A stretch of DNA of 64,000 nt from an uncultured Chlorobiaceae bacterium (GTDB taxonomy: Bacteria; Bacteroidota; Chlorobiia; Chlorobiales; Chlorobiaceae): positions 1 through 64,000 of the forward strand of contig CAIRXW010000036.1 of assembly GCA_903882665.1 (NCBI GenBank), read 5' to 3'. This document shows, piece after piece, positions 1 to 47,133 of the stretch (the stretch's first letter is position 1; every line of letters begins with the position of its first letter). The position numbers and the translations under genes were made by a program. Under the pieces are notes generated by a model, which ran no database searches, was not told the origin of the DNA, and saw nothing but the letters and a program-made list of their open reading frames with translations.

Positions 1-712
1 AATTGCCGTTTGCCTGCAAGAACAGGGCATTCAGTGCAGTAGGCCAAGGGCCGCCCGGTTAATGCGATCTATGGGAATTCGGTCTAAAGTTGCTAAAAAA
101 TTCAAGGTAACGACAGACTCAAACCATAAGGAACCGATTGCTCATAACCTTCTGGATCAGGTGTTTGTAGGTGATTTTATCAATGACGCCTGGACGAGTG
201 ACTTGACGTATGTATGGACTTGCAGCGGCTGGCTCTATTTGACGGTCATTATGGATCTGTACAATCGTGAAATTATCGGTCACTCATTCAGCAAACGAAT
301 GACGGCTGAAACAACGGTGAACCCTGCTCTGGATATGGCTGTAATGCACCGTAGACCAGCGCCAGGAGTCGTTATTCATTCGGATCGAGGCATCCAATAT
401 GCGAGTAAATCTTTCAGGAAGAAGCTTGCGAAACATGGCCTGATTCAGAGTATGAGTGGCAGGGGGAACTGTTATGATAACGCCGTTACTGAAAGCTTTT
501 TCAAAACCCTGAAAACCGAATTGGTGTATACTGAACACTATCGAACACGAGAAGAGGCCCGACACAGCATGTTTGAATATATTGAAGTATTTTACAACCG
601 AAAACGGAAACACTCAACATTAGGGTATAAATCGCCTATTGAGTTTTTACGCAATAAACAACAAATAATAGTTATGGCTTCTTAATGTGTCCATTTTTCT
701 GTTGCAAGTTCA
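1..712 (+). mobile_element. IS3-family insertion sequence, right part only
   Basis: Only the right portion of the element is in the window; it runs off the left edge. It holds the 3' part of orfB and ends at an IS3-like terminal sequence beginning TGTCCATTTTTCTG at 688 and finishing in ...AAGTTCA near 712. The exact outer end is inferred from the usual IS3 end form, because the left end and target duplication are not visible. It lies about 1 kb upstream of the sulfate-assimilation cluster. Confidence 0.75.
2..685 (+). CDS. IS3-family transposase OrfB, 5'-truncated by window edge
   Basis: DDE integrase-core transposase. The frame is open from base 2, with no stop before the ATG at 62, and the residues before that ATG ([16 protein letters not shown]) continue the family pattern, so the ATG at 62 is internal and the gene starts outside the window. 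Visible catalytic-core landmarks are the first Asp region ([10 protein letters not shown]), the second Asp in HSDRGIQY, and the Glu in the [13 protein letters not shown] segment. The C-terminal [16 protein letters not shown] is typical of IS3 OrfB. The protein would act with OrfA as a fusion transposase; OrfA is not in view. No internal stop or frameshift is seen, so this copy may be functional. Confidence 0.9.
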
Positions 713-1793: not shown

Positions 1794-1856
1794 ATACCAT
1801 CTTTACGGTATATTTATGGTATATGCTTGGAAACATTGAAAACATTCCGCTTTATT
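1794..1856 (+). promoter_or_regulatory. Sulfate-regulon promoter A (cysP operon)
   Basis: The 18-bp palindrome ATACCATCTTTACGGTAT lies at 1794-1811 (ATACC-N8-GGTAT). A -35-like TTGGAA follows at 1827-1832 and a -10-like TTTATT at 1851-1856, with 18 bp between the two hexamers. The same elements at the same spacings occur before the sulfite-reductase operon (10548-10610) and before the porin gene (12279-12341). A second GGTAT half-site lies at 1818-1822. Because the palindrome sits upstream of the -35, it is more likely an activator site than a repressor site. The protein that binds is unknown. Confidence 0.7.
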
Positions 1857-1883
1857 AACAATCGTGAACCAAACGGAGAGAAC

Positions 1884-1982
1884 ATGCACACGCTAACTGT
1901 AAATAATCCGGCCAGCTCCGGCACCTCTTGCTGTCGTATATGTAATCTCGCTGACATGAGAATGGGTGAGTGTAGCAGGTAA
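1884..1982 (+). CDS. Cysteine-rich leader peptide (cysP operon)
   Basis: A 32-codon ORF starting ATG at 1884, with a good ribosome-binding site (GGAGAG, 1875-1880) four bases upstream and ending TAA at 1980-1982. It contains four Cys codons: an adjacent pair at 1929-1934, one at 1941 and one at 1971, in the context SCCRICN...ECSR. It begins about 20 nt after the predicted transcription start and is followed by a terminator hairpin at 2006-2041, before cysP. This is the layout of a classical attenuation leader whose translation senses charged tRNA-Cys. A similar peptide (YRCCCRIN) precedes the co-regulated porin gene. Assignment rests on layout and codon content, not on homology. Confidence 0.6.
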   Translation: MHTLTVNNPASSGTSCCRICNLADMRMGECSR

Positions 1983-2005
1983 CACCATAGAGCATTTTTG
2001 CCATG

Positions 2006-2041
2006 GCCGGTTCCTGACACAAGAGGGAGCCGGCTTTTTTT
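2006..2041 (+). terminator. Attenuator terminator upstream of cysP
   Basis: A stem GCCGGTTCC / GGGAGCCGGC with a 10-nt loop, followed by seven T residues at 2035-2041. It lies 23 nt after the stop of the Cys-rich leader peptide and about 50 nt before the cysP ATG, so it would terminate most leader transcripts. A segment in the leader ORF, CCGGCCA (1908-1914), is exactly complementary to TGGCCGG (2004-2010), which covers the 5' arm of the stem and could form an alternative structure. Confidence 0.7.
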
Positions 2042-2093: not shown

Positions 2094-3107
2094 ATGAATC
2101 TTGAATGGATAAAAAAAATAACGATTACGGCATCATTGATTGCGGCATCCGGACTTCCGGGAGCCGTTGCCGAAGCAACAACGGTAAAACTGCTCAATGT
2201 CTCTTATGATCCCACCCGGGAGCTCTATCAGAGCGAAAACGCAGCTTTTGCCCAATATTGGCAAAAGAAAACCGGGCAAACGGTGCAAATCGACCAGTCA
2301 CACGGTGGTTCGGGCAAGCAGGCTCGGGCAGTGATTGACGGCCTTGATGCTGATGTTGTGACACTGGCACTTGCCTACGATATCGACGCAATCTCCGACA
2401 GCAAACTCCTGCCCGCAAACTGGCAAACAAGGCTGGCCAATAACAGCACACCCTACACCTCCACCATTGTCTTTGTGGTTCGAAAAGGGAATCCGAAAAA
2501 GATCACGGGATGGGATGACATTGTTAAACCCGGCGTTTCGGTTATCACCCCGAATCCGAAAACATCAGGCGGCGCCCGGTGGAACTATCTGGCAGCGTGG
2601 GGCTATAAACAGAAGCAGACCGGCTCGAAAGAACAGGCTAAAAACTTCATCAAGGCATTATACAAGAATGTCCCTGTGCTTGACACCGGTGCCCGTGGAT
2701 CAACACTGACCTTCGCGCAGCGCGGCCTTGGAGACGTTCTTCTGGCATGGGAAAATGAAGCCCACCTGATTCTGAAAGAGTTCGGAACGGATAAATTTGA
2801 AATTGTCTCACCAGCCGTCAGCATCCTCGCAGAACCACCGGTTGCGGTCGTCGATAAAAACGTCGCGAAACACGGTACCGGCAAGCTTGCTGAAGCTTAT
2901 CTGAATTTCCTCTATACTCCGCAGGCACAGGATATCATTGCACAGAACTCCTATCGGCCCCGTAACCCTGCTGCACTTAAAAAGTATGCGGCAAACTTCC
3001 CGAAGATCAAGCTCTTTACACTGAACGAAGTGTTCGGAAACTGGCGCAGTGCCCAGAAAACCCACTTTAATGATGGTGGCGTTTTCGATCAGATCTATCT
3101 ACCCTGA
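2094..3107 (+). CDS. cysP: Sulfate ABC transporter, periplasmic binding protein
   Basis: Periplasmic sulfate/thiosulfate-binding protein of the Sbp/CysP family, 337 residues, usual length for the family. An N-terminal signal peptide ends near the AVAEA site (about residue 26). Family landmarks include [14 protein letters not shown] after the signal, [34 protein letters not shown] and the C-terminal [11 protein letters not shown]. The ATG has a strong Shine-Dalgarno sequence (CAGGAGA). It is the first gene of cysPTWA and lies behind a Cys-rich leader and attenuator, so expression is predicted to respond to cysteine supply. A terminator just after it would make the binding protein more abundant than the permeases. 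CysP and Sbp cannot be told apart here. Confidence 0.93.
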
Positions 3108-3151
3108 AGAGCAGGCTTACTCGCCACGTAACAGCAAAATAACGTTCCAGG

Positions 3152-3183
3152 AAAACGGGAAATACATAACTCCCGTTTTTTTT
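3152..3183 (+). terminator. Intra-operon terminator between cysP and cysT
   Basis: Perfect 9-bp stem AAAACGGGA / TCCCGTTTT with a 10-nt loop, followed by a T run to 3183. It lies in the 100-bp gap between cysP and cysT. Partial termination here would produce more binding protein than membrane components, as is common for ABC importers. Confidence 0.75.
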
Positions 3184-3209
3184 GGAAGTTCGCATTAACA
3201 AGAGACTCA

Positions 3210-4043
3210 ATGGAATTATTTCAGGGAAAAAGACGCAACATTCTGCCAGGGTTCGGCCTGTCGATGGGGTATACGGTATTCTACCTTTCGGCAATCGTGA
3301 TTGTGCCGCTAAGCATGATCTTCTTCAACACCATTCCCATGGGATGGGAACCCTTTCTTCATACCGTAACAGCTCCCCGTGTTCTTGCATCGTATAGACT
3401 CAGTTTTTCCACAGCACTCTTTGCTGCCATTTTTGATGCCATCGTCGGGCTCCTGACCGCATGGGTACTGGTACGCTACCGCTTTGCAGGAAGACAGTTT
3501 CTGGATGCACTGGTTGACCTCCCCTTTGCCCTGCCAACCGCCGTTGCCGGTATCTGCTTCGCGACCCTCTACTCTCCTGTTGGCTGGCTTGGAGAAACCT
3601 TTGCAAAGTGGAACATTGAAATTATCAACTCACCGACAGGAATCGTGGTAGCGCTGATTTTTATCGGATTTCCCTTTGTGGTTCGCACCATTCAGCCTGT
3701 TCTCGAAGAGGTCGAACAGGAGATTGAGGAGGCAGCGCAGTGCCTTGGCGCAACGCGTTGGCAGACCTTCCGGAAAATTCTGCTTCCCCATCTTTTTCCC
3801 GCCCTGCTCACCGGCTCAACCCTTGCTTTTGCGCGTGGTATCGGAGAGTATGGTTCCGTGATCTTCATTGCCGGCAATCTGCCGATGAAAACCGAGATTG
3901 CTCCACTGATGATCATGTCGAAACTTGACCAGTTTGACTACGCAGGAGCTTCGGCCGTAGCACTGGTGCTTCTCCTTATCTCTTTTTCCATGCTTCTGCT
4001 GCTGAACGCAGTACAGGAGTGGCAACAGAAAGAATACCGTTAA
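3210..4043 (+). CDS. cysT: Sulfate ABC transporter permease CysT (CysU)
   Basis: Inner-membrane permease of the sulfate importer, 277 residues with about six membrane segments. It carries the EAA-loop motif that contacts the ATPase, EEAAQCLGATRWQTFRKILLP at about residues 173-193, followed by the GEYGSVIFIAGN stretch typical of CysT. It pairs with CysW to form the heterodimeric channel. The ATG at 3210 follows a weak AGAGA ribosome-binding site. The stop is separated from the cysW start by only 7 bp, indicating one transcript. Confidence 0.93.
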   Translation: MELFQGKRRNILPGFGLSMGYTVFYLSAIVIVPLSMIFFNTIPMGWEPFLHTVTAPRVLASYRLSFSTALFAAIFDAIVGLLTAWVLVRYRFAGRQFLDALVDLPFALPTAVAGICFATLYSPVGWLGETFAKWNIEIINSPTGIVVALIFIGFPFVVRTIQPVLEEVEQEIEEAAQCLGATRWQTFRKILLPHLFPALLTGSTLAFARGIGEYGSVIFIAGNLPMKTEIAPLMIMSKLDQFDYAGASAVALVLLLISFSMLLLLNAVQEWQQKEYR

Positions 4044-4050
4044 CCAAATT

Positions 4051-4917
4051 ATGCTGAAACAACCAACACCAGAAAGCGCCCCGATTATAAAAAAAAGGAT
4101 ATCTGACCCACTGCCAGTGCAAATGGCGCTGATCGGCCTGACACTCCTCTTTTTTATCACGTTTATCTTTCTGCCGCTTGGCCTGGTCTTTGCACAGGCA
4201 TTCTCGAAAGGGTGGGAGTACTACCTCGAATCCATTCGCGAGCCTTATGCGCTCGAAGCTGTAAAACTGACACTGACAACCGTCGCCATTGTTGTGCCGC
4301 TGAACGCACTCTTCGGCGTTACGGCAGCATGGGCCATTACGAAATTCAACTTCCGCGGAAAAGCTGCGCTCAAAACCCTGCTGGATCTACCCTTTGCGGT
4401 CTCTCCGGTTATTGCCGGCCTCATTTTTGTCCTGCTTGTCGGGAGTCGAACCCCTTTTGGCTCATGGCTCGGAGAGCAGGGGATTAAAATTATCTTTTCA
4501 ACCCCGGGCATTGTTATTGCCACCCTCTTTGTCACCTTTCCCTTTGTTGCGCGTGAATTGATTCCTCTGATGGAGGCGCAGGGACGTGATGAGGAGGAGG
4601 CCGCCCTGACACTGGGCGCAAGGGGCTGGCAGATTTTCGGAAAAATCACTCTGCCCAATATTCGCTGGGGCCTCCTTTACGGCATGATCCTCTGCAGCGC
4701 CCGCTCCATTGGCGAATTCGGAGCGGTTTCGGTTGTTTCGGGCCATATTCGGGGGCAGACAAACACCATTCCGCTCCATGTGGAAATTCTCTACAGCGAA
4801 TACAATTTTGCCGCATCATTCTCAGTTGCCTCAATCCTTGTCTTTCTGGCCCTCCTCACAGTAGGTGTCAAAGTGACACTGGAAAAACAATTTCAGAAAA
4901 ACAGCTTTCACCATTAG
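4051..4917 (+). CDS. cysW: Sulfate ABC transporter permease CysW
   Basis: Second membrane permease of the sulfate importer, 288 residues. The EAA loop is visible as [20 protein letters not shown], followed by the CysW-type segment [19 protein letters not shown]. Hydrophobic segments match a six-helix permease. It forms the channel with CysT and docks to the ATPase CysA, whose ATG starts 8 bp after its stop. Gene order P-T-W-A is the standard one. Confidence 0.93.
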
Positions 4918-4925
4918 GATCTGAC

Positions 4926-5999
4926 ATGGGTATCGAACTACAGAACATTACCAAGAAATTTACCGGCTATACGGCACTCGACAATATCAGTCTGAACGTT
5001 GCTTCAGGAGAGCTTGTTGCGCTGCTTGGCCCGTCGGGCTGCGGAAAAACCACCCTGTTGCGCATCATTGCCGGTCTGGAACTGCCGGACTCAGGAAAAA
5101 TCATTCTGGAACAGAAGGACACCACCAACCTTCCGCCCCGAAAAAAAAATGTCGGCTTTGTTTTTCAGCACTATGCACTTTTCCGCCGTCTGACGGTTTT
5201 TGAGAACGTCGCCTTCGGCCTCAAAGTGCTTCCGATGCGTGAGCGCCCCTCCCGCAGTGCCATTCAGGAGCGGGTTGAGCACCTGCTGAAGCTGGTGCAG
5301 ATGGATTGGGCCATCAAACGTTACCCGTCGCAGCTTTCGGGTGGGCAACGCCAGAGGGTGGCACTTGCAAGGGCATTGGCCGTCAATCCCAAAGTGCTGC
5401 TGCTTGACGAGCCCTTTTCGGCCCTTGATGCCAAGGTACGCCAGGAGTTGCGCCGCTGGCTAAGAAAGCTGCATGATGAAATCCATGTCACCAGTATCTT
5501 TGTTACCCACGACCAGGAGGAGGCGCTTGAACTGGCCGACCGGATTGTGGTCATCAACAAGGGGCGGATCGAACAGCAGGGAACGCCCCAGGAAGTTTAC
5601 GATCATCCGGTCAATGCCTTTGTCTACAACTTTCTTGGCAATGTCAACGTTTTCCATGGGCGAATCAAAAACGGCAAGGTCACTCTCGGCACTCACCATG
5701 TCGATGCTCCGGATGAACTGAAACATACCGAGGAGAGGGCAAGCCAGGCCTTTGTGCGGCCACACGAAATTGGTATCAGCAGAATCCGCAGCGCTGAAAC
5801 CGACCTCGCCGGTACCATCCAGGAGGTGCGTATCATGGGCGGTCAAATTGGCCTGAACCTTGCGTGTGAGGGGTTTGAGCATCCGATTGACGCCGAAATA
5901 CAAAGGGAACTCTACCTGAACCTTCAGCTTGCCAAGGGTGAAAAGGTCTTTGTCTCCCTGAACCGTGTCCGCGTCTTTACCAGTGATTATGAAATCTGA
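4926..5999 (+). CDS. cysA: Sulfate ABC transporter ATPase CysA
   Basis: Cytoplasmic ATPase of the importer, 357 residues. In order: Walker [10 protein letters not shown] (about residues 36-44), Q-loop VFQHYALF, signature LSGGQRQR, Walker B VLLLDEP, and the H-loop THDQEEA. The C-terminal third is a TOBE-like regulatory domain, including [11 protein letters not shown]. It is the last gene of cysPTWA and converges with cysN, which ends at 6065. The transcript probably stops in the short convergent gap, although the hairpin there has its U tract on the other strand. Confidence 0.94.
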
Positions 6000-6064: not shown

Positions 6065-7864
6065 TCATATCTGATAGTCAACAATAATCTCCTTTGCCTT
6101 AAGGAAAGCCGCAACCAAAGTCACCGCATCTGCGACAACTCCACCATCGGCCAACTGAAGATCGGGCTGGTAGCGTGAAAAACTGCTATCACCCCTGTTC
6201 ACAACAAGAATGTCGTTGGGCTCGTTGAGCAACTTCAGTGTCTCGACATCATAATCATCAGCATCGTCAATGGTAGTGATAAAAATAAGTCCGGCATCGG
6301 TGAGTATTCGGGCAAGCTCGCCAATTCTTCTCAACCGCTCCCCTGCACTGTCGGAATGAGAGCCAAGATCGGCATCAAGTCCGCGATCAATATTGGCCAC
6401 ACCGAGGTAGTAGGCATTCATGCCATTTTGAAAGAGCCCCTGCTCAAGCGCTTTGGCCACTGACCGTTTGCCGCTTCCCTTGGCTCCCGTAAAGACGATA
6501 AACTTGGCCTTGTGGCGGTTTACTATGGCACGCTGTTCAGCTCGGACAAACCCGGCTTCCCAGTTGTTTTCCCGATCCCGGATATGCTGCTGCAAAAGTG
6601 TCTCGCCAACTGAAAGATTTTCGATTACAACACCACCACCGGCAATTTCAAAATTGTCAACAATCACAAACCTTCCGGTAGCCTCGCTCGCAGCGGTGGT
6701 ATCGAAGGCGATCGGGCGGGAGGTTTCAAGAATGCACTCACCAACATCGCGGCAGTCAATCTGCTGTTTGCTTTTGCTGCTGGTCAAATCGGAGGCATCA
6801 AGCGTACTGCATATCTCTGCAAGCTTGACTGTAGCCCTTGCCGAACCGATCTTGAGCTTGTAGGATTTGTTCCGGATCATCGGTGCCCGGCCAACCCAGA
6901 AGATATTGACCCTGAAGCGGCTGCCCAACTCCGGCCGGGATTCGCCGGGTTTGACCATGAGCTCGCCAGGTCGCACATAAATCTGCGTGGCAAGGGTAAA
7001 GCCGGTCGATTCCCCGGCTGATGCAGCATTTTTTTGCCTGGTATTGAACGACTCGACCGACTGGATAACCGATTTTTTGGCGGAAGGCAGAAAGAGTACC
7101 TCGTCACCCACCTGCACTCTTCCGGCTGCAACCGTTCCGGCAACAATGCGCCGATCGTCATTGCTGCGGGTAAACTTGTAGATATCCTGAACCGGAAAAC
7201 GGAAGGGCTTTTCATGCAACTCCTTCTCGCTGACAAACTGGTCGAGCTGCTCCAGAACAGTAGCTCCCTTGTACCACGCCATCCGCTCAGAATGGGAGGC
7301 GATGTTGTCGCCCTCGCGGGCACTGACGGGAATAAAGCTGACCGGCGTCACGTTAATAGCCTCAAGAAATGATGTGTAATCGGCCTTCAGTTTTTCAAAA
7401 ACATCCTCACGAAAACCCGCAAGATCCATTTTATTGACCAGCACCGTCACCTGCTTGACGCCAAGCATTGCAACCATCTGCCCATGCCGCTTTGAGTTCT
7501 CCTTGATACCCTCGTCGGCATCAATAACAAGAAGAGCCGACTCCGCCCTCGATGCGCCGGTAATCATATTTTTCAAAAATTCAATATGACCGGGAGCATC
7601 AATGATGATATAGTCACGCGCGGCAGTATTGAAAAAACAACGGGCCATATCAATGGTAATCCCCTGCGCCTGCTCATCCTTGAGGGCATCAAGCAAAAAG
7701 GCATACTCAAAGGGCTTGGAATTCCTCCGGCAACTCTCTCTGACCGCTTCAAGCTTTCCCTGCGGAAGGGAACCTGTATCGGCCAAAAGCCTGCCAATCA
7801 CGGTACTTTTACCATGATCCACATGACCGACAATAACAATATTCATCTGCGCACGTCCATTCAT
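6065..7864 (-). CDS. cysN: Sulfate adenylyltransferase GTPase subunit with degenerate APS-kinase domain
   Basis: A 599-residue CysN/NodQ-like fusion. The N-terminal GTPase (about residues 7-420) shows G1 [10 protein letters not shown]3 DAPGH and G4 NKMD, and drives APS synthesis by CysD. The C-terminal domain (about 440-599) resembles APS kinase, but its key motifs are eroded. The P-loop reads GAKGSGKRS, with Arg where the family has Ser/Thr after the Lys, and the usual DGD segment is replaced by VANIDRG. APS-kinase activity is therefore doubtful. Since the operon also encodes an APS (not PAPS) reductase, kinase activity would not be needed. It is the last gene of the leftward operon, 55 bp after cysD. 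A second possible ATG lies at 7846. Confidence 0.93.
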
Positions 7865-7919
7865 AGCTCTACAAAAAAAAAGATTGAGTCACCCACCTTT
7901 ACCTGTTATCAATTATCAA

Positions 7920-8813
7920 TTACATATACCCATCGCGCCGAAGCGTCTCCAGCCCGCCATCTTCACTGTCCTGGGCACGCCCTGAACGCTCGGCAATATT
8001 TGAAAACTTGCCACTTTTCAGCTCATCAATAATCTCGGGCACCGTTCGTGCATTTGAATTGACCGGATTGGTACAGGGATAACAGCCGAGGGAGCGATAA
8101 CGAATGCCTTCACCCTGGTCAAAATAGAGTGAGACCACCGGAATTTTTTCACGCTCAATATATTCCCAGATGTTTTGCTCGGTCCAGTCAAGCAGAGGAT
8201 GGATGCGCACATGGGTACCGGGTGCGAAATCGGTTTTGAACTGATTCCAGAACTCGGGGGGCTGATCGCCTACATCCCAGACGTTGTCTTTATCGCGGGG
8301 TGAAAAATAGCGCTCTTTTGAACGGCTCCCCTCTTCATCAGCCCTGACGCCGACAATCACACCGGTATAGGGCTCCCTTCCCTCATCAACCACATAGCGC
8401 CGCTGCTCGTGATCCATCCTGTAGCGAGGCCACTCACCCGAAAGCGTATGTTTCAGCGCTTCACTTTTAAGATATTTGCAGCAGGTTATACGGTCGGTAT
8501 TGCCATCAGGGAAGGTAAGTTTTTCGGCAAGCGCCTCGCCGTTTTGACCATAAATCATGTTCAGGTTCCACTCAAGGGCAAACCGGTCACGATAGGCAAT
8601 CATTTCAGGGATCTTGTAGTGCGTATCAATGTGCACAAGCGGAATGGGGACGTGGCCGAAAAAAGCCTTCCGCGCAAGCCAGAGCATGACGGTACTGTCC
8701 TTGCCGATCGACCAGAGCATACAGAGGCTTTTAAATTCACGGTAGGCTTCGCGGAGAATATAAACGCTTTGTGCCTCAAGTTTGTCAAGATGATCCATAC
8801 ACTCGTTTGTCAA
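7920..8813 (-). CDS. cysD: Sulfate adenylyltransferase subunit 2
   Basis: ATP sulfurylase small subunit, 297 residues, normal length. It shows the PP-loop [17 protein letters not shown] (about residues 36-52), [11 protein letters not shown], the conserved KYLKSEAL and the C-terminal [15 protein letters not shown] region of CysD. It forms APS from sulfate and ATP with the GTPase CysN. Its ATG overlaps the cysH stop by four bases, so it is translationally coupled to the APS reductase. Confidence 0.95.
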
Positions 8814-9532
8814 GAAGGTTTGTGTTGTTCACGGTGCAGCCCGCACTCTTTATGCTCCGGCATTTCCCACCACCAGCGTCCGGCACGAATATCTTCTCCC
8901 GGCTTGATGGCCCTCGTACAGGGAGCGCAGCCGATGCTCGGGTAGCCCTGAGCGTGAAGGGCGTTGCAGGGCACCTCGTGCTGGAGGATATAGTCCCAAA
9001 CCCCGGCTTCACTCATATCGGCCAGCGGATTGATTTTGATGAGTCCAAATGACCCATCCCACTCCACCAGCTCCACTCCTGTTCTGGTGACCGACTGCTC
9101 CCGCCGTAAGCCGCAGATCCACCCCTTGAGGGTCGAAAGCTTCCCGGCAAGCGGCTCAACCTTTCGTATGCGGCAACACTCCCGACGCAACTCAACACTC
9201 TCATAAAAGAGGTTTGGCCCGTAACGCCTCAGCAATGCTTCAAGCGGAGCCCTTTCGGGCACAAGCACCTCAATTTCAATACCGTACCGCTTTCGCGTGG
9301 CATCAATGAGGTCATAGCTCTCCTGCGGAAGACGCCCTGTGTCGAGGGTAAAAATCGGTATTCGGAGTTGCTCCTTCTCCAGCATGTCGGTAATAACCTG
9401 ATCCTCTGCACCAAAACTTGAGGCAAGCGCACACTCTCCTGCCACAAAAAAGGCGGCAGCCCAGCGCAGAATCTCCTGCGGCGTTTTTTCGGAGAGTTCA
9501 TGCTTCAATTGTTCAGCAACTTCCCTGCTCAT
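8810..9532 (-). CDS. cysH: APS reductase (4Fe-4S type CysH)
   Basis: Assimilatory adenylylsulfate reductase, 240 residues. The N-terminal PP-loop-like region contains [10 protein letters not shown] and [14 protein letters not shown]. The two cysteine pairs that bind a [4Fe-4S] cluster in APS-using enzymes are present ([13 protein letters not shown] and GCAPCTRAI), and the catalytic ECGLH lies near the C-terminus. The cluster cysteines mark it as APS- rather than PAPS-specific. It lies between the sulfite-reductase gene and cysD in one operon. A GAAAGAG ribosome-binding site precedes the ATG at 9532. Confidence 0.94.
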
Positions 9533-9572
9533 AACTCTTTCATGATGTTTGTTTCATACAACACCTCCCCGC

Positions 9573-10463
9573 TTACTGGCCGCCAAGAATCTCCTCTCTC
9601 ACCGTTGCTATCCCGATGCGGTCAATCGTATGGCCAAAACGCTCTTTTTTTCGGCCATGAGTGCGATAACAGGTCAAGGTTTTCTCGATCAAGTCATACA
9701 GCTCCTCCTCGCTCTCAACCAGCTTCTTCAGCACCGTAGCAAATCGGGGAGTCTTGCCCATGGTGCCGCCGATAAAGAGCGTATAGCCCTGCTTGCCAAC
9801 AACCCACGCCTCTCCGGGGCAATGCTGGGTGCACATATTGCAATTGATGCAGCTCTCCCTGTCAACACTGTAATGGTACTCCCGTGTACCGTTGGAGCCC
9901 CTCTCGTCACGCACAATCGCTTTGGCGGGACAGAGCGAAAGACAGAGCTGGCAGTCACAGCACGACGAGGCAACCCAATCAGGCTCTATGGCACCCCTGA
10001 CACCGATATCATTTTCGTTTGCCTTGGTACAGTTATTGGCGCAACCCGTTACCGCCATTTTGAATTTTGAAGGAGCCTCCTTGTAAAAAAAGCGACGATC
10101 AAGCTCTTTTGCGATCTTCTTGGTATCAATGACTCCCCATTTACAGGTCGCCTCTCCCGGACAGGCCACAATGACCCGTACCCGAGGGCCCGAAGCCCCC
10201 ATTTCGACTCCTGCCTGACTAAGGGCAAGTTGAGCACTCTCCAGATTATCATGATGCACATGATGAATCTCAACCCCTTGACGAGTGGAGAGATGAACCA
10301 CTCCCCTGCCATACTGTTCAGCAACTTCAGCAATGCATGCAAGTTGCGAAGCACTCAAATCGCCAGCAACCGCCTTGATACGCAAAAGATAGTAATCGTG
10401 CTGCTTCTGGCGCAACACACCAGGGCCGGTCACGGCCGTCAAACCAGGTACAAGTTCCGCCAT
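9573..10463 (-). CDS. AsrC-like siroheme sulfite reductase with two ferredoxin motifs
   Basis: A 296-residue protein of the nitrite/sulfite reductase 4Fe-4S superfamily, much smaller than CysI. The siroheme/[4Fe-4S] motif is complete: CPGEATC (C-x5-C, about residues 105) and GCANNC (C-x3-C). These are followed by two ferredoxin-type motifs, CDCQLCLSLCP and CINCNMCTQHCP. The arrangement matches the catalytic subunit AsrC of anaerobic sulfite reductase. Being first in an operon with cysH-cysD-cysN, it most likely makes sulfide from assimilated sulfite. No AsrA/AsrB partner is visible, so its electron donor is unknown. The ATG at 10463 has only a weak ribosome-binding site, and an in-frame stop lies 8 codons upstream. 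Confidence 0.85.
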   Translation of the reverse strand: MAELVPGLTAVTGPGVLRQKQHDYYLLRIKAVAGDLSASQLACIAEVAEQYGRGVVHLSTRQGVEIHHVHHDNLESAQLALSQAGVEMGASGPRVRVIVACPGEATCKWGVIDTKKIAKELDRRFFYKEAPSKFKMAVTGCANNCTKANENDIGVRGAIEPDWVASSCCDCQLCLSLCPAKAIVRDERGSNGTREYHYSVDRESCINCNMCTQHCPGEAWVVGKQGYTLFIGGTMGKTPRFATVLKKLVESEEELYDLIEKTLTCYRTHGRKKERFGHTIDRIGIATVREEILGGQ

Positions 10464-10708: not shown

Positions 10709-10735
10709 CCGGAGGAGTACAACAGAATCAAACAG

Positions 10736-10809
10736 AGGCGATGACAAGATTCGAACTTGTGATAAAGAGTTTTGCAGACCCTTGGCTTAGACCACTCACC
10801 CACATCGCC
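10736..10809 (-). tRNA. tRNA-Cys (GCA)
   Basis: A complete cloverleaf can be drawn on the minus strand. The acceptor arms GGCGATG / CATCGCC form 7 perfect pairs. The D stem is GGTG / AGCC. The anticodon stem is AGGGT / ACTCT with loop CTGCAAA, giving anticodon GCA. The variable loop is TTATC, and the T arm is ACAAG-TTCGAAT-CTTGT. The discriminator base is U, as required for tRNA-Cys. The CCA end is not encoded. The gene sits between the porin gene and the sulfite-reductase operon, flanked by two terminators. Confidence 0.95.
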
Positions 10810-10917: not shown

Positions 10918-12021
10918 TTAGAAGGTTACCGTAGCATAGAGTTCTGTACGAAACAGGTTATCCTGTGTTGTAACACCAGCATGCGTTTCCGAACCGGATG
11001 CGCGATACCTGATGGTCGGCGTCAAACTGAAGGTTCCTGTGGCAGATTCATGCACATTGACTTTATACTGCGCCCAGACGAAGGTGTTGTTGTAATCTTT
11101 ATTATTGTGATCGTCCGAGGTCTTGTTGTAGTCGATCCAGGCAAGTACCGGGCCGGACTCTCCCTTGAGTCTGAAAATGTAGCCACTGTAGTCAAAACTG
11201 CTTCCACGATAGCTGTTTTTGTCTGCGGTATAAAATCCGCTCAGGGCGACCTTTGACTTGCCGACAGGAATGAATGCCTGTGCGCCCAAACTGTAAGGTG
11301 AACGATTGTCAGCCAGATGGGTCAAGGTAACATAAGCTTGCGGTGCAAAGGTAACATCTCCAACCGTGGTCTTGTATATCGCCGTGAAGCCATAGCCATC
11401 ATTGAAGAGCCCTCTGTCCGCAGTGGTAGTCGAAACGTTATCAAAGTTAACGAGCACAGCATTCAGTTCACCATCACCAAGCTTGACGCCATAATTGAAG
11501 CCAAAAAGACGATCAAAATGGTTGGTGGAGATCGGAGTATCAACGGCATACAATGTTGGACTGCTCCCGGCAGAAGAGGCGGCGGTTGACAACGGACCAG
11601 CACCGGGAATTGCGTAAAGAGTCAAATCCAGAATCGGGTTATCAAGGCTTCCAAGAGGAAGACGTCCAAGAGCCCAATGACTCTCTGCACTGTTGTGGCC
11701 AAAGTAAAATTGCGAAACCTGAAGGTTATACTGTTCAGTGTTATTGGGATAGATCCCCTGCCAGCCACCTGCCGGATTTTCATTCTGTACCAACGCCTTG
11801 AAGTAATAGCCATCACCAAGATCAGCCGAAGGCTTCAGACGAACGCGATACTGGAAATACTGATCTTCCGTTGATGTTTTGACCCCGACGGCGGATCGTT
11901 TATTCCCGAAATCGTCCCTCAAACGAACAGCAGCTTCACCGCCAAGCTTAAGCTCTGCCGAAGCTGATGATGCGTATGACAACACGGCAAACATTGCTGC
12001 CAGTGATAAAATCCTTTTCAT
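10918..12021 (-). CDS. Outer-membrane porin, candidate sulfate porin
   Basis: A 367-residue beta-barrel porin-like protein. A signal peptide (MKRILSLAAMFAVLSYASSASA, cleaved near residue 22) is followed by alternating aromatic/polar strands, and the chain ends in the outer-membrane signature ATVTF with a terminal Phe. I recognise no named family beyond porin. Its promoter (12279-12341) has the same operator and promoter spacing as the cysP and sulfite-reductase operons, and its leader carries a Cys-rich peptide and hairpin. I therefore infer that it admits sulfate or a related sulfur compound through the outer membrane under cysteine limitation. The ATG at 12021 is preceded by AAAGGGAGAAACACT, a strong ribosome-binding site. 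Confidence 0.8.
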   Translation of the reverse strand: MKRILSLAAMFAVLSYASSASAELKLGGEAAVRLRDDFGNKRSAVGVKTSTEDQYFQYRVRLKPSADLGDGYYFKALVQNENPAGGWQGIYPNNTEQYNLQVSQFYFGHNSAESHWALGRLPLGSLDNPILDLTLYAIPGAGPLSTAASSAGSSPTLYAVDTPISTNHFDRLFGFNYGVKLGDGELNAVLVNFDNVSTTTADRGLFNDGYGFTAIYKTTVGDVTFAPQAYVTLTHLADNRSPYSLGAQAFIPVGKSKVALSGFYTADKNSYRGSSFDYSGYIFRLKGESGPVLAWIDYNKTSDDHNNKDYNNTFVWAQYKVNVHESATGTFSLTPTIRYRASGSETHAGVTTQDNLFRTELYATVTF

Positions 12022-12080: not shown

Positions 12081-12114
12081 GAAAAAGCCGGCTCTCTGAA
12101 CGAAAAAGCCGGCT
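12081..12114 (-). terminator. Attenuator terminator upstream of porin gene
   Basis: On the minus strand two copies of the self-complementary AGCCGGCT (12114-12107 and 12093-12086) pair across a 13-nt loop and are followed by five T residues. It lies 31 nt past the stop of a Cys-rich leader ORF and about 60 nt before the porin ATG. A further perfect 6-bp hairpin (ACCCTG-CTGCT-CAGGGT) lies between the leader stop and this stem. Confidence 0.6.
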
Positions 12115-12145
12115 TCGAAATAGTCAACCCTGAGCAGCAGGGTCG

Positions 12146-12262
12146 CTATGTCGATAATCGGCTATTCCGTAACGCATCGTTTATGCGGCAACAACAGCGA
12201 TACAAATTGCGGCCGGTACGGTTGTCCTGTAATCTGAGCTGATAGTTCATTGCAAGTGTCAT
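12146..12262 (-). CDS. Cysteine-rich leader peptide (porin gene)
   Basis: A 38-codon ORF from ATG at 12262 to TAG at 12148-12146. It contains three consecutive Cys codons (TGT TGT TGC) in the context YRCCCRIN, closely resembling SCCRICN in the cysP leader. It begins soon after the predicted transcription start of promoter C and is followed by a terminator hairpin. No good ribosome-binding site precedes the ATG and the 5' leader would be only about 10 nt, so translation initiation is the weak point of this call. Confidence 0.5.
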   Translation of the reverse strand: MTLAMNYQLRLQDNRTGRNLYRCCCRINDALRNSRLST

Positions 12263-12278
12263 TTGATTTACAGTGGTT

Positions 12279-12341
12279 AATAAAGCACCATATCATCATA
12301 AAATCCAAGCATATACCATATAAATACCGTTAATATGGTAG
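12279..12341 (-). promoter_or_regulatory. Sulfate-regulon promoter C (porin gene)
   Basis: On the minus strand the palindrome CTACCATATTAACGGTAT (12341-12324) is followed 15 bp later by TTGGAT (12308-12303), then 18 bp, then TTTATT (12284-12279). All spacings equal those of promoters A and B. Promoters A and C also share an identical 17-nt stretch, TATGGTATATGCTTGGA, covering a second half-site and the -35. Confidence 0.68.
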
Positions 12342-46173: not shown

Positions 46174-47133
46174 TCAAATTCCGAATCCTTTTAAAAGAGC
46201 CCTCAATCCGGCCGCAGCAAGAAGGGTGATAACGAGCTTTCTCACAACACGGGTGTGAACCTTTGTAAGCAATCTGGCGCCAATTTTTGTACCGAGCATC
46301 ATACCGGCAACTGATGGCACTGCGATAAGGGGGAGAACCGCACCCTTGTGCAGATAGACCCATGCCGCAGCAGTGTCATTGACAGAAAGCACAAAAATGC
46401 TTGTGGCCACTGAAACTCTCAGCGGAGCACCAAGAACAAGGTTGAAAACCGGCACATTGGCCCATCCGGCGCCAAGCCCGAACATTCCAGCCATGAATCC
46501 AATCACAACGAACAGCAGGATACCAACGGGTGTGCGGTGGATTTGCCAACTGACATCTTTTTTAAGCTGTTCATCGTAATAGATACCATAGATATGCAAT
46601 ATTTTGGAAAGCGTATCCGGCTCTGTTACTTCAGGATATGCCGAATTTTTTGAAAGCAGCATGATCACGGAAATACCAAGAATTGTTGCACCAAGAGATA
46701 ACTGCACAACATTTTCCGGCATGGCCAACCCAACCATGGCACCGGCTATTGAACTAATAGAGGCAATCAGCGCCATTGAAAGAGCCAGTTTGAGATTTGC
46801 CAACCCTTTTTTCAGCAAGGGAGAGCCCGCTGAAAGCGCTCCGGAAAGTGCCACAAGCAGTCCCGCTCCCCTCACAAAGTCAATATGAAAGGGGAAAAAG
46901 CTGCTGACAATCGGCACAAAGAGCACTCCCCCTCCGACCCCGGCAATAACGGCGATAATGCCAAGAAAAAAAGAGAAAACGAAGAGCGCAATTTCCCAAA
47001 CCCACCACTCCGTCTGTACGGGAGGCTGAGATTGTACGGCCAAGGCCACTGCCGGAGAAAAAAGCAGCAGACCTGTGAGCACGCTCAAAAGAAAAATGGA
47101 GCCAATCGATCTACAACGCCTTTGATTAATCAC
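46174..47133 (-). CDS. TauE/SafE-family sulfite/sulfonate exporter
   Basis: A 319-residue integral membrane protein with about eight hydrophobic segments and two duplicated halves (GIIAVIAGVGGGVLFVPI and GFMAGMFGLGAGWANVPVFNLV), typical of TauE/SafE. An N-terminal signal-like segment precedes. It lies 6 bp after soeA, so sulfite or a related anion is the likely substrate. Confidence 0.88.
   Translation of the reverse strand: MINQRRCRSIGSIFLLSVLTGLLLFSPAVALAVQSQPPVQTEWWVWEIALFVFSFFLGIIAVIAGVGGGVLFVPIVSSFFPFHIDFVRGAGLLVALSGALSAGSPLLKKGLANLKLALSMALIASISSIAGAMVGLAMPENVVQLSLGATILGISVIMLLSKNSAYPEVTEPDTLSKILHIYGIYYDEQLKKDVSWQIHRTPVGILLFVVIGFMAGMFGLGAGWANVPVFNLVLGAPLRVSVATSIFVLSVNDTAAAWVYLHKGAVLPLIAVPSVAGMMLGTKIGARLLTKVHTRVVRKLVITLLAAAGLRALLKGFGI

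Follow-up and report, generated by a model that had tools for sequence, protein, structure and literature searches.

A putative cysteine-sensing transcription attenuator before the sulfate-transporter operon of Chlorobiaceae, with similar leaders before other sulfur genes

Known cysteine leaders and the Chlorobiaceae locus

In the trp, his, leu and thr attenuators of enterobacteria, a leader peptide is rich in the regulated amino acid and the position of the ribosome upon it is the switch. To our knowledge, cysteine-sensing attenuators that carry a terminator are on record from only a handful of places. A 2014 study by Lyubetsky et al. is said to treat the regulation of genes for PF00480 and PF14340 (DUF4395) proteins, with a suggested role in sulfur metabolism. 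Two other described systems come close. One is uORFC-8-2, which lies upstream of cysS in Rhodobacterales and is predicted to permit read-through when Cys-tRNA is low (PMC8632094); the other comprises the cys/cbs leaders of Actinobacteria, for which Rho-dependent control has been suggested (PMC1262725).

The element described here lies in a 64 kb stretch of an uncultured Chlorobiaceae genome (the whole stretch analysed, hereafter the window), directly before a sulfate-transporter operon. Its parts are as follows.

1827..1856 (+): candidate promoter, TTGGAA (1827–1832), 18 nt, TTTATT (1851–1856); found by eye
1875..1880 (+): GGAGAG, plausible ribosome-binding site of the leader ORF; from sequence
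1884..1982 (+): leader ORF of 32 codons, MHTLTVNNPASSGTSCCRICNLADMRMGECSR; read from the sequence, kept at 49 loci
1929..1934 (+): tandem Cys codons TGC TGT (codons 16–17), the putative sensing codons
1971..2021 (+): antiterminator hairpin; from the stalled-ribosome fold and from covariation across 30 leaders in the equivalent hairpin
2005..2041 (+): intrinsic terminator, stem 2005–2035 with T-tract 2035–2041; from folding and compensatory changes
2094..5999 (+): sulfate ABC transporter operon, the putative regulated operon; first gene by NF008022, the others named by ORFs and gene order
2094–3107 (+): sulfate-binding protein gene; NF008022, 495 bits
3210–4043 and 4051–4917 (+): two permease genes; ORFs and gene order
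4926–5999 (+): ATPase gene; ORFs and gene order

As in uORFC-8-2, a short upstream ORF with two tandem Cys codons (there usually at positions 14–15) is followed by an intrinsic terminator. However, uORFC-8-2 serves one gene, for cysteinyl-tRNA synthetase, in Alphaproteobacteria, and has two stems, the first of which holds the Cys codons (PMC8632094), whereas the leaders here, from Chlorobiaceae, precede sulfur-acquisition operons and have a long antiterminator 3' of the Cys codons. Many Chlorobiaceae leaders allow weak hairpins to be drawn across their Cys codons, and the consensus fold retains the terminator alone. With a host among the Chlorobiaceae and a sulfate-binding protein gene downstream, the element is not a member of uORFC-8-2. 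The Actinobacteria leaders likewise place runs of Cys codons in leader ORFs before sulfur-assimilation genes, but there the run lies near the stop codon and no terminator is conserved, in contrast to the terminator and antiterminator found here (PMC1262725). With the enterobacterial attenuators the element has in common a leader rich in the regulated amino acid, an antiterminator and terminator that exclude one another, and a switch that would be set by ribosome position, and judged by its sequence it is very probably an attenuator of that classical kind; it differs in that the signal would be cysteine and in its targets, most of which are genes for uptake or scavenging and not an operon for biosynthesis.

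The original prediction had described a 32-codon ORF with a ribosome-binding site and four Cys codons, two of them adjacent, followed after a short gap by a GC-rich hairpin and seven T residues, and all of this was read in place. The MHTLTVNNPASSGTSCCRICNLADMRMGECSR ORF runs from the ATG at 1884 to the TAA at 1980–1982, its Cys codons are numbers 16 and 17 (1929–1934), 20 (1941–1943) and 30 (1971–1973), and 22 nt separate the stop codon from the start of the terminator. Searches of Rfam and NCBIfam matched no family to the leader. The sequence TTGGAA...GCTTTATTAAC is kept 5' of many relatives' leaders, and some relatives seem to have weaker ribosome-binding sites. The transporter operon adjoins a sulfate-assimilation operon, so that the downstream genes serve cysteine supply, as expected of the attenuator class. 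A transposase-like (integrase-core) gene fragment, named by eye, occupies positions 1–685 (+) of the window, shortly 5' of the sulfate locus.

The combination is rare by chance. On both strands of the window, three ATG ORFs of 15–60 codons contain adjacent Cys codons and have a terminator within 75 nt downstream, against a mean of 0.15 such pairs per 64 kb in Markov-resampled sequence. The three are the leader before the sulfate-binding protein gene (cysP), a second real leader (12250, −; see below) and an ORF at 46589 (−), which we rejected as a chance match since it lies out of frame within a membrane-protein gene.

Of 394 genomes searched within the phylum, 59 contained a close relative of the sulfate-binding protein, and we took the available upstream regions. 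A leader ORF (mostly of 32 codons) and a terminator precede 49 orthologous sulfate-transporter loci in two genera. Adjacent Cys codons, the codon cluster typical of attenuators, are present in 45 of these leaders, and a hairpin with a T-run in all 49, so that the check originally suggested, on conservation of ORF, Cys codons and hairpin, came out positive and the proposal of a cysteine attenuator is strongly supported. Cysteine makes up 15% of all leader residues, and the Cys run mostly ends 15–16 codons before the stop codon (exactly 16 in 28 of the 42 leaders counted), while both the peptide outside the Cys positions and the flanking sequence drift. Neither the paralogous sulfate-binding genes in the same genomes nor the copies found in the phylum's more distant families had the leader; that leaderless copies occur in the same genomes indicates that the element does not merely travel with the gene. 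Of 32 unrelated sulfate-binding loci from other phyla, two had any short ORF with neighbouring Cys codons in the 350 nt upstream. As to the second sulfate-binding gene copies without an attenuator (L070, L074–L077, L088–L090), most retain the upstream palindromic site described below.

Two mutually exclusive folds

The terminator stem (2005–2035) consists of 11 pairs plus one isolated pair, the folded stretch having an energy of −20.1 kcal/mol, and four of its eight consensus pairs show compensatory change among 30 sequences. In the antiterminator, positions 1971–1973, 1976–1979 and 1981–1983 pair with 2010–2021, enclosing an apical hairpin at 1985–2006. The two structures have 2005–2021 in common and, because the antiterminator uses the 5' arm of the terminator, they are mutually exclusive. 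In most relatives the equivalent antiterminator begins at a conserved CCGG just 5' of the last Cys codon, with a slightly shifted register in the closest relatives of the window compared with the rest.

Two alternative folds had also been proposed originally, with CCGGCCA (1908–1914) pairing to TGGCCGG (2004–2010). An exclusive pair of folds is indeed supported and both of these motifs are present, but the alternative to the terminator is the hairpin at 1971–2021: we rejected the proposed pairing as antiterminator, as its upstream half occurs in only one of the 49 leaders, and a ribosome halted at the Cys codons would already have passed it. How such a stall could favour read-through had not been obvious; a hairpin downstream of the Cys codons would explain it.

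Support for the antiterminator comes from covariation and from folding energies. Across 30 aligned leaders, 70.8% of cells were paired, against 66.4 ± 0.8% after shuffling, and covariation was 0.239, against 0.183 ± 0.013 (0/500 shuffles) and a maximum of 0.146 when slid. RNAalifold on the full alignment returned the terminator only. We folded the RNA ahead of a ribosome standing at the tandem Cys pair, at a stage when the terminator's 3' arm has yet to be transcribed, and scanned the ribosome codon by codon, assuming that it covers 12 nt ahead of the decoded codon, a value that matches the one quoted in PMC4833913. Sequestering the terminator arm gained, on average, 9.0 kcal/mol for a ribosome on the tandem Cys pair versus 2.0 for one on the stop codon; for the leader in the window it was 11.3 and 0.3 kcal/mol, respectively. 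Thus, by covariation and these modelled energies, the exclusive antiterminator that is characteristic of attenuators appears free at the stall and blocked at the stop.

The folding evidence is uneven. In the window, the stalled-state fold was only marginally more stable than dinucleotide shuffles (−23.2 versus −18.6 kcal/mol, z −1.5, p 0.05), and for 46 leaders the mean z was −1.44, with z < −2 in only 16, these tests not being independent since the leaders are mutually related. Pairing of the terminator arm is common in shuffled sequences too (mean 0.71 versus 0.56 shuffled), and arm-pairing probability alone was no better than in shuffles for most leaders. Folding with the ribosome footprint masked, which the original prediction had suggested, gave a divided result. 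At equilibrium, folds of the complete leader showed no distinction between the states, because pairings with distant segments tie up the arm everywhere; a co-transcriptional calculation, confined to the RNA in front of the ribosome and made without the terminator 3' arm, did tell them apart. Three further points count against the mechanism: the antiterminator register shifts among relatives, folding predicts the antiterminator for an untranslated leader as well, and Cys codon 30 sits within the antiterminator, so that a stall there would favour termination.

Taken as a switch, the element would work as follows. When cysteine is sufficient, the leading ribosome would reach the stop codon (1980) and cover the 5' half of the antiterminator, allowing the terminator (2005–2041) to form and transcription to stop before the sulfate-transport operon. 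Under cysteine shortage, the ribosome would stall at the tandem Cys codons (1929–1934) with its front edge near 1943; the antiterminator (1971–2021) would then fold first and capture the 5' arm of the terminator, and RNA polymerase would enter the transporter genes. We infer the ribosome stalling, the termination and the direction of the response from sequence. On sequence and modelled folding, and also because the same design precedes other sulfur-related genes, the element is very probably a ribosome-mediated transcription attenuator sensing charged tRNA-Cys.

Competing readings of the leader

Cysteine-rich peptides often bind metals, and most leaders have a CC...C spacing, so the short ORF might encode a Cys-rich mini-protein with a function of its own, such as metal or redox binding, with the hairpin as its own terminator and the sulfate operon separately promoted. 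Yet the peptide drifts freely apart from its cysteines and certain residues dictated by the RNA hairpin (its SGSCR end arises from the TCCGG there), the stretch between 2041 and 2094 shows no evident promoter of the operon's own, and the antiterminator covaries. Moreover, other leaders of the family encode quite different peptides, with three to seven Cys in a row, in the same layout with respect to the terminator, and we consider a mini-protein very unlikely. We give just as little credence to termination governed by a metabolite-binding RNA or an RNA-binding protein, with the Cys codons incidental to a conserved RNA motif, TGCTGTC. No other DNA stretch of the leader ORF is as well conserved as this motif, and a weak hairpin can be drawn over it in many leaders; however, where the sequence changes, in the leaders of genus g2 and others, in-frame Cys codons remain or even multiply (CCCDKSC, MMCCCCCC, CCCCCCC), the leader lacks an Rfam match, and the genes downstream are those expected for a cysteine signal.

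Least probable of all, and to our minds close to negligible, is that the hairpin is the ordinary terminator of the upstream gene (755–1738), the ORF being there by chance. That gene does lie on the same strand and ends at 1738, but a promoter-like region and a palindrome intervene (1794–1856), only 0.15 pairs of ORF and terminator are expected by chance per 64 kb, and the arrangement is kept at 49 loci. Attenuation in response to charged tRNA-Cys thus remains the reading that we prefer.

Cysteine leaders, palindromes and tRNA-Cys across the family

A covariance model of the cysP leaders identified a second Cys attenuator in the window, at 12250–12084 (−), before a porin gene. It and the neighbouring features are listed here, together with the palindromic sites.

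1794..1822 (+): palindromic site ATACC-N8-GGTAT plus a further GGTAT, a probable transcription-factor site
6065..10463 (−): sulfate-assimilation operon (sulfite-reductase-like gene, cysH, cysD and cysNC-like gene; sir-cysHDN)
10610–10593 (−): palindrome 5' of the sir-cysHDN operon
10735..10809 (−): second tRNA-Cys(GCA) gene, flanked by the porin gene and the sir-cysHDN operon
10918..12021 (−): porin gene behind the second attenuator; PF13609
12084..12116 (−): porin-leader terminator hairpin including a short T-run; −20.0 kcal/mol
12101..12169 (−): porin-leader antiterminator hairpin; from folding
12146..12250 (−): porin leader ORF, MNYQLRLQDNRTGRNLYRCCCRINDALRNSRLST, with Cys-Cys-Cys codons at 12196–12188; model match, then read
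12313..12341 (−): palindromic site 5' of the porin leader, with three mismatches to the extended pattern

With a ribosome at the third Cys codon of the porin leader, the segment that remains uncovered folds with −32.8 kcal/mol, and the porin leaders of relatives contain three to five consecutive Cys codons at all 11 loci examined. The sir-cysHDN operon, which faces the sulfate-transporter operon and is followed by the tRNA-Cys and porin genes, has no attenuator that we could see.

The same model, built from the cysP leaders alone, was run over 86 family genomes; it favours TGYTGY at the 5' end, which biases its matches towards such codons, and does not demand an in-frame ORF with start and stop. 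Leaders were found at 18 of 19 DUF4395-metY operons (metY belongs to the O-acetylhomoserine sulfhydrylase family), nearly all with long Cys runs, the longest of seven consecutive codons (L213). The genome under study has one such leader, MKSMTSITLMMCCCCCCHKLHYSGKRISEKRL, with six consecutive Cys, before its own DUF4395-metY genes (contig C47:8295–8418, L172), and another, MKLTILLHTLCCCCLPYSILI, with CCCC, before a CoA-dehydratase activase gene (contig C24:20051–20169, L173). Further Cys leaders in the family precede a NifH-like gene, radical-SAM genes, ABC transporters and outer-membrane proteins. Seven weak matches (L180, L181, L187, L201, L210, L217 and L218) lack a Cys leader and were regarded as matches to the terminator only. 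The NifH-like gene (behind a Cys leader at L211, L214 and L220) scores 386.7 bits with TIGR01287, below the cut-off of 394 for the nitrogenase iron protein, and its product may be a nitrogenase-like sulfur-scavenging reductase. Together, the attenuators before the sulfate transporter, the porin and other sulfur genes look like one cysteine-sensing control network.

Part of this network may have been described already. The study by Lyubetsky et al., to judge from its title, concerns PF14340 genes and may cover part of the DUF4395-metY branch, where the DUF4395 genes found here follow leaders with two to seven consecutive Cys; that title names neither sulfate transport, porins nor tRNA-Cys. A literature search for a Cys attenuator in Chlorobi found none, and, save for the regulation of DUF4395 genes reported earlier, the Cys-attenuation regulon appears to be undescribed.

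A second layer of control is suggested by the palindrome. Its extended pattern occurs twice in the window, where none is expected, and its core has exactly three mismatch-free occurrences in the whole genome, two of which lie before the cysP leader and before sir-cysHDN; a copy with one mismatch precedes cysK (C47:11297 of this genome). From its sequence, the palindrome shared by the cysP leader, the sir operon, the porin leader and cysK probably marks a transcription-factor regulon. The factor would probably act on initiation, with attenuation as an added layer on the uptake genes.

The genome carries two different tRNA-Cys(GCA) genes, a divergent copy in the window and another located elsewhere. 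The window-type tRNA-Cys is nearly invariant in many family genomes (100% identical in > 20), is sometimes a tandem duplicate and usually shares a contig with cysH. At nine loci (L177, L178, L179, L193, L205, L208, L212, L213 and L215), tRNA-Cys lies inside the attenuated operon, between DUF4395 and metY. More tentatively, and with rather less than even confidence, we propose a family-wide regulon (sulfate transporter, porins, DUF4395-metY, NifH-like, radical-SAM and ABC transporter genes) with the extra tRNA-Cys within or beside attenuated operons. If so, cysteine starvation would alter both the sulfur supply and the tRNA-Cys pool read by the attenuators, a feedback. We know of no other attenuator with such feedback through its tRNA pool.

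The putative switch would thus represent a testable Cys attenuator conserved across a bacterial family, in a design that recurs before many sulfur-acquisition genes. Its natural leaders, with two to seven consecutive Cys codons, provide a ready set for studies of Cys-tRNA limitation, and neighbouring genes of unclear function likely have a role in sulfur starvation. Green sulfur bacteria live on sulfide, yet often carry sulfate assimilation, and the element would offer a direct handle on when they choose sulfate uptake.
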